Source: Candidatus Poribacteria bacterium (lineage in GTDB: Bacteria > Poribacteria > DTPJ01 > WJIO01). Taken from it: a stretch of DNA of 18,711 nt. Under the pieces are notes generated by a model. That model ran no database searches. It was not told where the DNA came from and worked only from the letters and a program-made list of their open reading frames with translations. Position 1 is the first letter of the stretch, and each line of letters starts with the position of its first letter. Position numbers and translations under genes: made by a program. Below are positions 6,148 through 18,711 of this stretch, in pieces. The stretch covers positions 1 through 18,711 of the forward strand of contig WJIO01000158.1 in assembly GCA_014730235.1 (NCBI GenBank), read 5' to 3'.

Positions 6148-6216
6148 TGTCATTCCTGCTTCAAGCTTTTTGAAAAAGCTTGAGCAAAAAGGAATAAGAG
6201 TTCCGCAGGAATGACA
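6148..6216. repeat. Nested hairpin repeat, TGTCATTCCTGC family
   Basis: The ends are TGTCATTCCTGC (6148-6159) and GCAGGAATGACA (6205-6216), exact reverse complements. Inside is a second perfect hairpin, TCAAGCTTTTT-G-AAAAAGCTTGA (6161-6183). The inner segment GAAAAAGCT...CAAAAAGGAAT also appears in the composite copy at 16026-16051, so this is an element sub-type rather than a chance palindrome. Confidence 0.85.
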
Positions 6217-6240
6217 GGACTTAATTTTAAATTTATTCAT

Positions 6241-6377
6241 ACTATACTTTCGCACTTTTTAAAAGACATAGTATTTATGCGCTTGTAGTGACACGGTATA
6301 CCGTGTCACTATAAGCCGAGAACCCTTATAAAATTTGTATTTACCGTTTTGATATATAAAAAGTGCGAAAGTATAGT
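6241..6377. mobile_element. 137-bp MITE-like element with 21-bp terminal inverted repeats
   Basis: The left end (6241-6261, beginning ACTATACTTTCGCAC) is the exact reverse complement of the right end (6357-6377). Inside, 6286-6311 is a perfect 26-bp palindrome whose centre is ACGGTATACCGT; with one mismatch pair it extends to 36 bp (6281-6316). It encodes no protein and no convincing target duplication was found. It begins 39 bp downstream of the LamG stop, so its hairpins may also end that transcript. Confidence 0.8.
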
Positions 6378-7178: not shown

Positions 7179-7231
7179 TTTTATTTTTCACCTCATATTT
7201 GAAGTTTGGCGTTAAGCAAGTTTAATAAATG

Positions 7232-7329
7232 TGGTTCTTCCGGGTTTAGTGTGGTAATGAGGAAAAGATCACAAATTATAAAAGAAAAACCTAATTCTTC
7301 CTGTCATTCCTGCTTTCGCAGGAATGACA
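7232..7329. repeat. Partial copy of the TGTCATTCCTGC palindromic element
   Basis: The outer end at 7232-7258 (TGGTTCTTCCGGGTTTAGTG and onward) is identical over 27 bases to 13991-14017. A diverged 43-bp spacer leads to the core hairpin TGTCATTCCTGC-TTTC-GCAGGAATGACA (7302-7329; 12-bp perfect stem, 4-nt loop). It lies between the DUF4091 and LamG genes. In minus-strand transcripts the hairpin would sit about 108 nt after the DUF4091 stop. Confidence 0.85.
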
Positions 7330-11991: not shown

Positions 11992-12058
11992 TTTGCTAGA
12001 ATGACAGCATAAAGAAGTTTCTTATCTTTAACACACTGAACCGGGAATGTCCAACTTT
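11992..12058. repeat. Degenerate half-copy of the palindromic element, inverted
   Basis: Reading TTTGCTAGAATGACAGCATA onward, this stretch matches the reverse complement of 12541-12610 in the full element, including AGAAGTTTCTTATCTTTAACACAC. The core hairpin is lost (only one side, AGAATGACA, remains). It lies between the ferredoxin and the dehydrogenase genes. Confidence 0.7.
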
Positions 12059-12122
12059 CTTCTCTCCCAAAAATATATTTTTCATGTTTTATATTTTAAC
12101 ATATGCAATTGCCTATATCAAA

Positions 12123-12160
12123 TGAAAAGGGGAGAGAAAATATTTACTCTCCCCTTTTCA
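12123..12160 (-). terminator. Rho-independent-type terminator after the ferredoxin gene
   Basis: A perfect 14-bp stem, TGAAAAGGGGAGAG (12123-12136) with CTCTCCCCTTTTCA (12147-12160), closes a 10-nt loop. It lies 29 bp downstream of the ferredoxin stop. On the minus strand the stem ends in CCCCTTTTC and is followed by ATTTG, so the U-tract is short but present. The hairpin is strong in either direction. Confidence 0.8.
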
Positions 12161-12189
12161 GATAATTTAAAAGCTTTTATCGCTGAAAT

Positions 12190-12440: not shown

Positions 12441-12504
12441 AACAAACATACCAAATAAATAGAATATCAAATACTGTTAAATAAGGCAAGGAAAAAATCT
12501 TTCT

Positions 12505-12700
12505 TCCAAGCATAAAATTTATTTCCGTGTGTTATTGCGATAAAGTTTGGTTCTTCCTGGTTAAGTGTGTTAAAGATAAGAAACTTCTATATGCTGTCAT
12601 TCCTGCTTTCGCAGGAATGACAGGCTGAGAAAATTTTCAAATTATTACCATACTCAACCCGGAAGAGCCAAAGTTTTCACGGATAAATTTTATGCTTGGA
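12505..12700. mobile_element. Full-length palindromic MITE-like element
   Basis: An almost complete ~196-bp inverted repeat. The outer arms TCCAAGCATAAAATTTAT (from 12505) pair with 12683-12700. The middle arms GTTTGGTTCTTCC (12545-12557) pair with GGAAGAGCCAAAG (12661-12673; one T:G difference). The centre is the hairpin TGTCATTCCTGC-TTTC-GCAGGAATGACA (12595-12622). TCT flanks both ends (12502-12504 and 12701-12703), a possible but weak 3-bp target duplication. No coding potential. It fills most of the 422-bp gap between the ferredoxin and URO-D genes. Confidence 0.85.
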
Positions 12701-12800
12701 TCTTCCTTTTCAGATTCTGCAACTAAAATTGCCGAAGCCATAGCTGTAAGGATCGCTATCAACATATACAAATAAACTCTATAGCATTTTGTCTATAAAT

Positions 12801-13940: not shown

Positions 13941-13987
13941 TTCTCTCCTCTGTGATTATTAATACTTAATCCTGAAAAGCCTATAAT

Positions 13988-14066
13988 TTTTGGTTCTTCC
14001 GGGTTTAGTGTGGTAATAATTTGAAAATTCTCTCAGCCTGTCATTCTTGCTTTCGCAGGAATGACA
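13988..14066. repeat. Half-copy of the palindromic element with core hairpin
   Basis: TTTGGTTCTTCCGGGTTTAG and the bases up to 14038 closely match the reverse complement of the right arm of the 12505-12700 element, including AATAATTTGAAAATT and TCTCAGCC. The core hairpin follows at 14039-14066 with one T:G wobble (ATTCTTGC). The second arm is missing. It lies in the region upstream of the URO-D gene and would be transcribed as its leader if the promoter is further up. Confidence 0.85.
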
Positions 14067-14234
14067 AACAGATGATATTTTTTCTGAGAAAGGTGTTGCG
14101 GTAATATGTCAATTATAATCGAAAGAAGGAAAATAAGCATAGCAGATTAACGGGAGGATATAGGGGATCCTGCCCGGTGAGTTTACAGGCTTTGGGAATA
14201 GGAGTGAAATCTCTCATAGTGCTTGATTCTGGCA
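14067..14234. other. Remainder of the gap between the URO-D and HU genes
   Basis: No gene. A perfect minus-strand -10 hexamer TATAAT lies at 14117-14112, but no convincing -35 box is placed with it. If it is used, the URO-D leader would include the hairpin repeat at 13988-14066. Nothing else was recognised. Confidence 0.3.
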
Positions 14235-14302
14235 AATCCATATAAAACATTTATGGGCGGTGAATTTAATAATTCACCGCCCATAAATGTTTTATATGGA
14301 TT
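14235..14302 (-). terminator. Perfect 32-bp-stem hairpin downstream of HU
   Basis: Arms 14235-14266 and 14271-14302 are exact reverse complements with a TAAT loop. The inner stem is GGGCGGTGAATT / AATTCACCGCCC, followed on either strand by ATAAATGTTTTAT, so a normal GC-rich terminator core with a T-rich tail is embedded in a much longer perfect duplex. It begins 12 bp after the HU stop. Termination is the likely role; the length and perfection are unusual for one. Confidence 0.75.
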
Positions 14303-14314
14303 ATTATTAATAAA

Positions 14315-14587
14315 TTACATAACAGCTTCTTTCAAACCTTTACCGGCAGAAAATACGGGAACTTTTTTGGCTGGTATTTTTAGTTCTTCACCAGTCCTGG
14401 GATTACGTCCTGTCCTGGCTTTTCTTTGTTTTACCGAAAAGGTGCCAAACCCAACCAGTCTAACATCATCACCTTCGGCCAGCGCGTCTCTAATAGAGGC
14501 TATAATAGCATTAACCGATTCTTCCGCCTGTTTCTTGGTTATATCCATTTGGTCTGCAACTGCGGATGCTAAATCTGCTTTCGTCAT
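14315..14587 (-). CDS. hup: DNA-binding protein HU
   Basis: A 90-residue histone-like protein, the standard HU length, which bends and compacts DNA as a dimer. The N-terminal helices run from MTKADLASAVADQM to about residue 45. The family signature lies in GFGTFSVKQRKARTGRNPRTGEEL (about 46-69), with the intercalating Pro in RNPRTG at the tip of the beta-arm. The C-terminus is VPVFSAGKGLKEAV. The ATG at 14587 gives the canonical HU N-terminus; an in-frame ATG at 14620 would add 11 atypical residues. AGGGAG lies 8 nt upstream. A consensus promoter about 360 bp upstream (14945-14973) points at this gene, and a 32-bp-stem hairpin follows it. IHF is less likely because the sequence lacks IHF-specific features, although the two are close relatives. 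Confidence 0.95.
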   Translation of the reverse strand: MTKADLASAVADQMDITKKQAEESVNAIIASIRDALAEGDDVRLVGFGTFSVKQRKARTGRNPRTGEELKIPAKKVPVFSAGKGLKEAVM

Positions 14588-14938
14588 TCGCCCTTCTCCC
14601 TTCTGAAGGTAAAGCCTCATTTTTTATTCTAAAGCTTCACCATTATTTGATTATTAAGTTGGTTTAAAAAATCTTCAGGTAAAGTAAACTTTCTTAAAAC
14701 TTTATTTTTGGTTTTACCTAAAGTAGAAAAAGTTTTTGGCTATCTCTATTGAATTGAAAATCTCCCCCATCCCTTCCTTAAGGTGGGATTATGGGGTTTG
14801 AATACACTGAAAACGGATATAAATTTACACTTTTCAGAATTTCGCTTAAATATGTTTACTAACCGCCCTTCATGAAGGTGAAATAACTAGCCAAAGGCCA
14901 TAAAAATAGGTGCTTAACCCTAAATATATATGTTATAT
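14588..14938 (-). other. Long gene-free leader of HU, or unrecognised small RNA
   Basis: About 350 nt between a consensus promoter and the HU start, with no protein longer than a few codons. Visible structure includes CCTTCATGAAGG (14867-14878) and the imperfect C-run dyad around CCTTAAGG (14761-14797). A far-apart pair, AGGTAAA and TTTACCT, on the minus strand near 14720-14676 is followed by ATTTTTT, resembling an attenuator or terminator. It does not match 6S RNA, tmRNA, RNase P or SRP RNA as far as I can recognise. Confidence 0.35.
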
Positions 14939-15962: not shown

Positions 15963-16121
15963 GCCATTCCTGCGAAATCAGGGATCCAGTCTTTACGTGG
16001 TCTGGATCCCTGATTTCTAGCTGTTTGAAAAAGCTGGGGGCAAAAAGGAATCAGAATTTCGCAGGAATGACATGCTTATAAAAGTTTTTCGTTTTTATTA
16101 CACTTACCCCTGAGGAACCAT
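15963..16121. repeat. Composite palindromic element after the ATPase gene
   Basis: The outer ends CATTCCTGCGAAAT (15965-15978) and ATTTCGCAGGAATG (16056-16069) pair perfectly. Between them is a second perfect 16-bp stem, GAAATCAGGGATCCAG (15974-15989) with CTGGATCCCTGATTTC (16002-16017), 12-nt loop. The following GAAAAAGCT...CAAAAAGGAAT is shared with the 6148-6216 copy. The stretch from 16072 to 16121 matches, inverted and diverged, the TGGTTCTTCC..TAAGTGTG arm of the 12505 element. It ends 1-2 bp from the ATPase stop. Confidence 0.8.
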
Positions 16122-16122
16122 A

Positions 16123-18711
16123 TTATTTTTGCCAGTGAGCGAGAAGAGGTTTTGAAAGCTGACCTAACATCCATGGCAAAAAGCTCATTGACAACAACAG
16201 AAGCCAACCTTTGATTCCCGGGTCTACTACTTTAAGTATTTGCGCAAAACCAGGTATATAAACAGCGGCAAGGAGTAGTAAACAGCATAGAGCTAATGCT
16301 CCCCATATGAAGGGGTTTTGGGTAATATCGTTTCGGAAAAATCCTGAGGTTGTATCACGCATGTTAAAGACATGCCACAATTGAGCGAAGGCCAGGGTAA
16401 GAAAGGATATGGTAACGGCTTGCTCTTTTCCCATGTTTAACCAGTTAAGGGAAACGAATAATGAAACCAGAACCGATATGGTTATCAAAAACCCGTAGCC
16501 AGCTATGGCTATCCAGTGATTGCGGGTTAATATAGATTCTTTAGGATCCCTGGGTTTTTGGCTCATTATATTTTTGTCACCTTTACCCACTCCCAAAGCC
16601 AGGGCGGGAAATACATCAGTAACAAGGTTCAGGAAAAGTATCTGCAACGGTAGAATAGGCAGGGGTGCGTTTATGAGAGATGCGATAGATACGGCCATAA
16701 TTTCGCTGACGTTGCATGACAACAGGTAAAGAACAAATTTCCGAATGTTGTTGAAGATAATCCTTCCTTGTTCAACAGCGGACACAATTGTAGAAAAAGC
16801 ATCGTCGGTGAGAACCATATCAGCGGCTTCCTGTGCTACCTGAGTTCCCCTTTGTCCCATGGCAACTCCTATATCAGCTTTTTTAAGGGCAGGTGCATCA
16901 TTTACACCATCGCCGGTCATGGCTACAACAGAATTATTTTCCTGATGGGCATTGATTAAATCCAGCTTTTGTTTCGGACTTACCCTTGCAAAGATGGATG
17001 ATTTCAACAGCTTGGATTTTTCGTCCTCAGAAAGCTCCTCCTGCTCTTTAATATCACTTCCATGAATTGCCTCGTCATCATCTTCTTTAATTAAACCTAC
17101 AGCACGACCAACATTCCGGGCAGTGGCAGGATGATCACCTGTTACCATGACAGCCCTTATACCAGCGCTATGACACTGTTCAATAGCACTTTGTACGTCC
17201 TTCCGAGGGGGATCTAACATTCCAGCTAAACCCAAGAATGTAAGATTCTCATAGGGTTCATCTTCAACGGAATCAGTTTCTTTTGCCGCAAGAGCGATAA
17301 TCCTGAGACCATCTTCGGCCATTTCGTTATTTTTATTTACCCACTGTTCCCGGTCCTGATCCTGAATTTCGGTTTTGCCATCCTCTGTCCGAATTGACGA
17401 ACACGCTTCTAATATCGATTCAGGCGCACCTTTTACCGCGACCCGGAATTTTCCGTTATTTTTATGGAAGGTTGCCATCATTTTGACATCGGAATCAAAT
17501 GCGACTTCGTTCTCTTCCGGTAATTCCTCTATCAGGTCGTCATGGTATATACCACCTTTGGCCCCGGCTATCAGCAAAGCCACTTCCAGAGGTTCACCAA
17601 CAGGTTTTTCGCCCTCTTCTTTTAGAGATGCGTTGTTGCACAGAACCCCGGTCTCCAGCAGTTCCTTCAGGATTTGATTATCTTCGAGGTTAATGGAATT
17701 TCCATTCAGGTTGAAATCCCCTGAGGTTTCCAGTCCCTCTCCGCTAACGTTTATCTGGCCTGAATCAAGTTTTATCTGGGTAACTGTCAGACGATTTTCT
17801 GTAAGAGTACCGGTTTTGTCGGTAAAAATAACATTAGTAGCACCCAGAGTTTCTACAGCAGAAAGACGTCTTATTAGTGCGTTGCGTTTGGACATACGCC
17901 ACATACCTCTTGCCAGAGCAATGGTTGCGACTATAGGCAGTCCTTCCGGTATTGCTGCTACCGCCAGAGCAATAGCTGTTTCGATCATCAGGAACATCTC
18001 TTTGCCGGAAAGAATACCTGCTACTGCTATAACCACAGCGATGCCCAGAGTTATCCATATAAGCCTGTGGCTTAGTTTATCAAGACGTTTTTCCAGAGGA
18101 GTCCGTTCTTCTTCCGCTTCTTCCACCAGGGAGGAAATTTCGCCCAGTTCTGTTTCCATACCGGTTGTTACAGCAATGCCTTTGCCTGAACCTCGGGTTA
18201 TGGCAGTTCCCTTGTAGAGCATGTTTTTTCTTTCCGCCAGTGGAACTTCCCCTTCAAGGGCTTCAACATCCTTGCTGACAGGGACAGATTCACCAGTTAA
18301 GGAGGACTCATCGGCTTGGAGTTTGGAAGCTTCAAACAGACGAAGATCTGCGGTAACTATGTCACCACCTTCTAACACCAAAATATCTCCGGGTACGATT
18401 TCCTCTGCGGAAATTTCCTGTACCTCGCTATTCCTGAGAACCTTTGAATTTACACTTCCCAATTTCTGGAGGGCCTCCATAGAACGCACTGCTTTTATCT
18501 CCATGAAGAAGCCTATCCCGGCATTAATTATTATAACCGCCAGTATTGCTATTCCCTCAACCCAATCCCCAAAGATAAAAGAAAGGCAGGAAGCGGCTGC
18601 CAGAAGCAAAACCATAAGGCTTTTGAATTGATCAATTATTATAAGCAACACACTTTTGCTTTTGGCTTCACGAAGTCGATTTGGACCGTATTCTTTAAGC
18701 CTCTTATCCAC
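16123..18711 (-). CDS. Calcium-type P-type (P-IIA) cation ATPase, N-terminus cut by window
   Basis: At least 862 residues of an integral-membrane ATP-driven cation pump; roughly the first 20-30 residues are outside the window, because the visible sequence opens in the DKRLKEYGPN region and the leading GTG is probably an internal Val. Actuator motif TGES is at 139-142, M4 PEGLP at 255-259, phosphorylated D298 in DKTGT, KGAPE at 428-432, TGDHPATA at 524-531 and the hinge TGDGVNDAP at 599-607. M5 SCNVSE (N667, E670) and M6 LNLVTD (N695, T698, D699) align with the calcium ligands of SERCA. The M8 glutamate of SERCA is Gln here (Q777). About ten membrane segments are expected. It probably exports Ca2+; Na+ or another divalent ion cannot be excluded. 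It ends at a composite repeat. Confidence 0.93.
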   Translation of the reverse strand: MDKRLKEYGPNRLREAKSKSVLLIIIDQFKSLMVLLLAAASCLSFIFGDWVEGIAILAVIIINAGIGFFMEIKAVRSMEALQKLGSVNSKVLRNSEVQEISAEEIVPGDILVLEGGDIVTADLRLFEASKLQADESSLTGESVPVSKDVEALEGEVPLAERKNMLYKGTAITRGSGKGIAVTTGMETELGEISSLVEEAEEERTPLEKRLDKLSHRLIWITLGIAVVIAVAGILSGKEMFLMIETAIALAVAAIPEGLPIVATIALARGMWRMSKRNALIRRLSAVETLGATNVIFTDKTGTLTENRLTVTQIKLDSGQINVSGEGLETSGDFNLNGNSINLEDNQILKELLETGVLCNNASLKEEGEKPVGEPLEVALLIAGAKGGIYHDDLIEELPEENEVAFDSDVKMMATFHKNNGKFRVAVKGAPESILEACSSIRTEDGKTEIQDQDREQWVNKNNEMAEDGLRIIALAAKETDSVEDEPYENLTFLGLAGMLDPPRKDVQSAIEQCHSAGIRAVMVTGDHPATARNVGRAVGLIKEDDDEAIHGSDIKEQEELSEDEKSKLLKSSIFARVSPKQKLDLINAHQENNSVVAMTGDGVNDAPALKKADIGVAMGQRGTQVAQEAADMVLTDDAFSTIVSAVEQGRIIFNNIRKFVLYLLSCNVSEIMAVSIASLINAPLPILPLQILFLNLVTDVFPALALGVGKGDKNIMSQKPRDPKESILTRNHWIAIAGYGFLITISVLVSLFVSLNWLNMGKEQAVTISFLTLAFAQLWHVFNMRDTTSGFFRNDITQNPFIWGALALCCLLLLAAVYIPGFAQILKVVDPGIKGWLLLLSMSFLPWMLGQLSKPLLAHWQK

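Follow-up and report, generated by a model that had tools for sequence, protein, structure and literature searches.

A high-copy MITE family in a Candidatus Poribacteria genome with ends at a fixed distance upstream of sigma70 promoters

The hairpin-forming element at positions 12506-12699 of the 18,711-nucleotide stretch of Candidatus Poribacteria DNA analysed here (the window; contig WJIO01000158.1 of assembly GCA_014730235.1) is, with a probability that we put at about 0.9, a MITE moved in trans by an ISKra4/ISLre2-type transposase and inserted at a fixed distance upstream of sigma70 promoters. The ends of this MITE stand 16 bp upstream of outward-pointing sigma70 -35 boxes, and the fixed 16-bp spacing was seen in two independent element families. 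The initial annotation of the window had assigned the element to a MITE-like family, which is borne out by copies with the same ends, by 9-bp target duplications and by a coresident insertion sequence (IS) with shared outer ends and the same duplication length, but it had missed the insertion-site rule.

Structure and boundaries of the window element

The boundaries of the element were set by comparing the flanks of its best matches in the same genome. This comparison places a 9-bp duplication directly outside CCAAGC...GCTTGG, and the element therefore spans 194 bp (Table 1). The span of 12505-12700 proposed initially is one base longer at each end, and these two bases are part of the target duplication. 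Within the element the terminal inverted repeats are perfect over 17 bp, or over 18 bp with the complementary bases of the duplication included.

Three nested levels of inverted repeat had been described and all of them are present: the 18-nt outer arms (12505-12522 and 12683-12700) and the 13-nt core arms (12594-12606 and 12611-12623) are 100% complementary, while the 12-nt middle arms form 11 Watson-Crick pairs and one G.U pair. The predicted RNA fold of the element contains 79 pairs in 194 nt and has a free energy of -90.4 kcal/mol, compared with a mean of -38.5 kcal/mol for shuffled sequences (z = -13.5); as none of the 200 shuffles folded as well, a chance palindrome was ruled out. The hairpin is real, but the wording "nearly perfect palindrome" was too strong, as the whole element is only about 70% identical, with gaps, to its own reverse complement. 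The element was also said to encode no protein, and indeed no open reading frame (ORF) of 60 or more amino acids was found inside it.

Table 1. Positions of the MITE copy, its parts and associated features in the window
Feature	Position	Strand	Remarks
MITE, full-length copy, 194 bp (CCAAGCATAAAATTTA ... TAAATTTTATGCTTGG)	12506..12699	.	ends as in other copies; bordered by 9-bp duplication; lacks ORFs of 60 aa or more
Left target site duplication ATCTTTCTT	12497..12505	+	8/9 identical to right copy
Right target site duplication ATCTTCCTT	12700..12708	+	pairs with left duplication
Left terminal inverted repeat	12506..12522	+	100% complementary to right one; common to IS fragments on C45 and C60
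Right terminal inverted repeat	12683..12699	-	100% complementary to left one
Middle arm TTTGGTTCTTCC	12547..12558	+	partner 12661-12672
Core hairpin CTGTCATTCCTGC-TTTC-GCAGGAATGACAG	12594..12623	.	sub-repeat, 332 perfect copies in genome
Putative -35 box TTGCCT	12484..12489	-	16 bp from element end (offset 17)
Putative -10 box TATTCT	12461..12466	-	spacer of 17 bp after -35
Ferredoxin-like ORF, 62 aa	12190..12378	-	cysteine pattern only; putatively served by promoter adjoining element
Internal fragment, same family, without ends	11999..12047	-	94% over 49 nt
Internal fragment, same family, without ends	13983..14085	.	88% over 78 nt
Internal fragment, same family, without ends	7224..7329	.	sequence match
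Internal fragment, longer 294-333 bp subfamily, without ends	6148..6243	.	98.6% over 69 nt
Internal fragment, same family, without ends	16015..16129	.	sequence match

Truncated and inverted relatives of the element had been noted elsewhere in the window; five such fragments were seen, none carrying the ends of the element. They had been taken to imply mobility or ongoing recombination, a conclusion that we do not retain: the fragments represent decay or shared sub-repeats, and ongoing mobility is not shown by them alone. Further repeats lie in the window. A second MITE-like family is represented at 6241-6377 by a 137-bp sequence with 21-bp perfect inverted repeats (ACTATACTTTCGCACTTTTTA) and an inner palindrome (GTGACACGGTATACCGTGTCAC), whose ends have 23 + 21 matches in the genome. 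At 14235-14302, just past the stop codon of a minus-strand ORF (14315-14620), two perfectly matching 32-nt arms enclose a 4-nt loop; this inverted repeat is probably a terminator or a separate palindrome.

Copies in the genome and the partner insertion sequence

The element has close relatives (79% identity or more) in at least 41 places, with the best 40 of 879 first-look candidates having been scored. Allowing up to 3 mismatches, its 16-bp end was matched 217 + 217 times in the genome, compared with 43 + 38 times for a reversed-pattern control, and 72 + 75 matches were exact with one ambiguous base allowed; copies with the same outer ends, on which the initial reading depended, are thus plentiful. 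The duplication is constant in length, 9-bp repeats with at most 2 mismatches being present at 31 of 44 end pairs and at two 23-bp mini-elements. From the excess of about 350 ends we estimate roughly 175 elements, and in any case a copy number well over a hundred; the figure is only an estimate because many contigs of this fragmented, 91.6%-complete genome break inside copies.

Family members range in length from 163 to 333 bp, with a longer subfamily of 294-333 bp, and they keep their ends while the modular interior varies. The 23-bp forms, in which both ends abut, were found at L075 1501-1523 (G000:C93:2746-2768), L094 9694-9716 and L079 1501-1523; duplications border two of them (TGTCAACAA twice in L075, TAAATTCTA/TAAATTCCA in L094), and these forms may be hairpin deletions or excision remnants. 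At two loci (L062 near 1139 and L093 near 6819) a sequence starting GATACTGTTGGCGAATT lies just inside element ends; it is probably another IS, apparently inserted in copies of the MITE family. Outside this genome the CCAAGC family was represented by nothing beyond two isolated matches in 57 relatives, the closest of which available for comparison belongs to another family; it was absent from viral contigs, and a wider collection of genome contigs gave just two single matches, both inside coding sequence.

The very stable fold and the 332 perfect genomic copies of the core hairpin (GTCATTCCTGC...GCAGGAATGAC), which is shared across the family, would also suit a REP/BIME-type palindrome, a structured RNA or a terminator, in which the hairpin rather than a transposon would be the functional part. 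We consider this hardly credible given the constant ends, the 9-bp target duplications and the same-ended IS. Moreover, variants of all lengths keep the ends, and the 163-bp copy L054 has no core hairpin at all but a perfect duplication. Comparison with Rfam gave only microRNA-type matches far under the gathering scores, as expected because any long hairpin gives them.

The reading of the element as a MITE, by contrast with a REP-type palindrome, calls for an IS with the same terminal repeats. Matches to the ends only led to a fragment on C45 in which CCAAGCATAAAATTTACATCC is followed directly by the C-terminus of a transposase; this remnant and a second one, which starts ACAAGCATAAAATTTAAGTCC on C60, are broken ISs with up to 21 bp of end in common with the MITE. 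A search with the C45 fragment revealed an intact IS of 1,509 bp, L116 (G000:C354), with an open transposase frame of about 440 amino acids. It carries CCAAGCATAAAAATAATGTTCCCTT on both sides as 25-bp perfect inverted repeats, flanked by a 9-bp duplication (CCGATTTGT twice). The first 12 bases of its ends are common to the MITE (14 of 16), after which the two differ, and the duplication lengths are equal. Judging from the shared ends, an L116-type transposase would be the one that moves the MITE.

The L116 transposase matched Pfam UPF0236 with an E-value of 1e-25 and a score of 90.9, above the cut-off of 24.3. It scored 152.9 against the NCBIfam ISKra4 model (1.4e-44) and 144.5 against the ISLre2 model (5e-42), below the respective curated cut-offs of 205 and 200; the ISLre2 model matched nothing in 14 control genomes. 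By its sequence the predicted enzyme falls between ISKra4 and ISLre2 (UPF0236, prokaryotic Mutator-like), and L116 has both the inverted repeats of 18-39 bp with a terminal C and the 8-9 bp duplications that serve as criteria for these groups. D203, D278, D299 and E392 are conserved in an alignment of 14 sequences, and the catalytic triad may consist of D203, D278 or D299, and E392; a search for solved structures of the transposase found none.

Spacing between element ends and -35 boxes

When 125 element ends were read outward into the flanking DNA, TTGAC was found at offset 17, that is, after a gap of 16 bp, in 23 of them, compared with 0-4 at other offsets and with 0.1 per offset on the reverse strand. 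At 45 of the 125 ends a complete promoter has its -35 box at offset 15-19, against 2.1 in shuffles (maximum 9), and the same promoter score was reached at 55 ends at the true offset but at only 12-16 in shifted windows. The -10 box mostly lies 17 or 18 bp past the -35. Among the 37 insertions for which both flanks and the duplication were available, 25 are flanked by a promoter at this offset on one side or both (shuffled sequences: 5.4 on average, at most 11), and 8 of them on both (shuffled sequences: at most 2). In 48 of 53 cases the ORF closest to the promoter-side end is directed outward, its start codon lying a median of 124 bp away, and both arms of the element are used (28 left-type and 18 right-type ends). 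The single insertion of L116 itself has no recognisable -35 alongside and does not show the 15-17 bp spacing.

The window copy obeys the spacing rule with a weaker box, TTGCCT-17-TATTCT, which reads toward the 62-aa ferredoxin-like ORF. Downstream of this ORF, a 28-nt inverted repeat at 12114-12169 (AAAAGGGGAGAG...CTCTCCCCTTTT) looks like an intrinsic terminator.

The rule was also apparent when the gap between end and TTGAC was left free from 1 to 31 bp genome-wide: it is exactly 16 bp in 37 and 15-17 bp in 50 of the 78 own-genome junctions with TTGAC within 31 bp. ISKra4-family ISs with quite different ends (GGGTGTGTAAAGTTTTTG) occur in other genomes of the phylum, together with short elements that have the same GGGTGTGTAAAGTTTTTG ends; all five of the phylum ISs tested score above the NCBIfam ISKra4 cut-off. 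Among 94 of these ends, TTGAC stands at offset 17 in 15 and at offset 16 in 4, cases that include ends of the full-length ISs L130, L138 and L142. The gap scan of the phylum elements yielded at least 150 junctions, and among the 150 listed the gap is exactly 16 bp in 62 and 15-17 bp in 95. In these scans each gap outside 15-17 bp holds 0 to 7 junctions. A small second peak, at a gap of 22 bp, holds 5 of the 78 own-genome junctions and 5 of the 150 listed for the phylum. Cyanobacterial plasmid elements of 1.9 kb annotated as ISKra4 also have 9-bp duplications, but none of the three whose duplications are clear, a small sample, has a promoter at the expected distance.

Such a distribution could in principle arise from near-random insertion, if the only copies to survive were those close upstream of promoters, where insertions are least harmful. 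Most copies are indeed found upstream of genes and not within long ORFs, and about a third of the insertions have no recognisable promoter at the right place. Selection, however, would allow a broad range of distances, yet a single peak was found, and its 16-bp value recurs in other genomes, where the ends of the elements are unrelated. We regard near-random insertion as very improbable, and the spacing would be set by targeting rather than by selection alone.

In the targeting mechanism that we propose, a DDE transposase of the prokaryotic Mutator-like type, between ISKra4 and ISLre2 and encoded in trans by the same-ended IS, would recognise the CCAAGCATAAAWTTTA ends and cut the DNA ahead of a sigma70 promoter with a 9-bp stagger, whose midpoint lies some 12 bp upstream of the -35 hexamer. 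The core promoter would stay intact and keep 16 bp of its own upstream DNA. The position would be supplied by contact with promoter-bound RNA polymerase, a model proposed for TnGBS (Brochet et al. 2009, as cited in PMC3942029), or by direct reading of the -35 box. The latter, with the transposase reading the TTGAC hexamer itself and not the promoter complex, is a variant of the same explanation rather than an alternative to it; promoters would then be found because intergenic TTGAC motifs are mostly -35 boxes. The position is indeed tied to the -35 and not to the -10, promoters with 18-bp spacers still having their -35 at offset 17. Against this variant, an excess of good -10 boxes at offset 40 persists in the related genomes at ends without TTGA at 15-19 (6 ends, compared with a mean of 0.7 at other offsets); no such residual -10 signal is visible at own-genome ends without TTGA (3 vs 1.8). 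We consider direct reading possible, if on the unlikely side. It is a more doubtful idea still that the promoter-targeted MITEs form a shared cis-regulatory layer, in which the stable hairpins, having spread to a large number of host promoters, would insulate core promoters or replace upstream activator sites in a coordinated manner.

Comparison with known systems

TnGBS, ISLre2 and some elements of the ISKra4 group are reported to insert upstream of sigmaA promoters, 15-17 bp from the -35 (Guerillot et al. 2014, PMC3942029), which rules out promoter targeting as an undescribed phenomenon. Those elements generate 8-9 bp duplications, with promoters on either side where the inverted repeats are nearly identical (PMC3942029), and in a large IS survey ISLre2 and ISKra4 were the exceptions that prefer positions 50-250 bp from genes (PMC9208149). 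MITEs are not mentioned in PMC3942029, a 2024 review of prokaryotic MITEs names no preference of this kind in the section where it treats insertion sites, and a limited search of the open-access literature found no description of MITEs with a promoter-upstream habit.

The closest likeness is to the ISKra4 group of p-MULT 4 (PMC3942029), which has a Mutator-like DDE transposase, 8-9 bp duplications, a terminal C, a fixed distance upstream of the sigmaA -35 and promoters on both sides where the ends are near-identical. The present MITE differs in being 194 bp long and without a transposase, and its partner transposase remains under the NCBIfam ISKra4 cut-off. ISLre2 and TnGBS (p-MULT 3) are alike in their position 15-17 bp upstream of -35 boxes and in their 9-bp duplications, and the partner transposase scores almost as high against ISLre2 as against ISKra4. 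Unlike the MITE, p-MULT 3 elements have a single orientation of insertion, the right end adjoining the promoter, and known ISLre2 members come mostly from Firmicutes (PMC9208149). MITEAba12 (PMC6382973) is likewise non-autonomous, with 16-bp terminal repeats, 9-bp duplications and ends common to a resident IS, but it is derived from ISAba12, is 113 bp long and weakly folded, and has only an AT-rich target preference with no promoter spacing reported. The Correia elements of Neisseria are also short intergenic MITEs that often lie upstream of genes; they carry their own promoters (PMC10969869), whereas the promoter next to the present MITE is part of the host DNA beyond the duplication.

What is new is therefore a high-copy non-autonomous family with a known promoter-upstream habit, which would have spread by this targeting to well over a hundred sites of a single genome. 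The family provides a large natural set of insertion sites at base-level resolution, in which the -35, not the -10, fixes the position, and it also serves to find promoters in an uncultured lineage.
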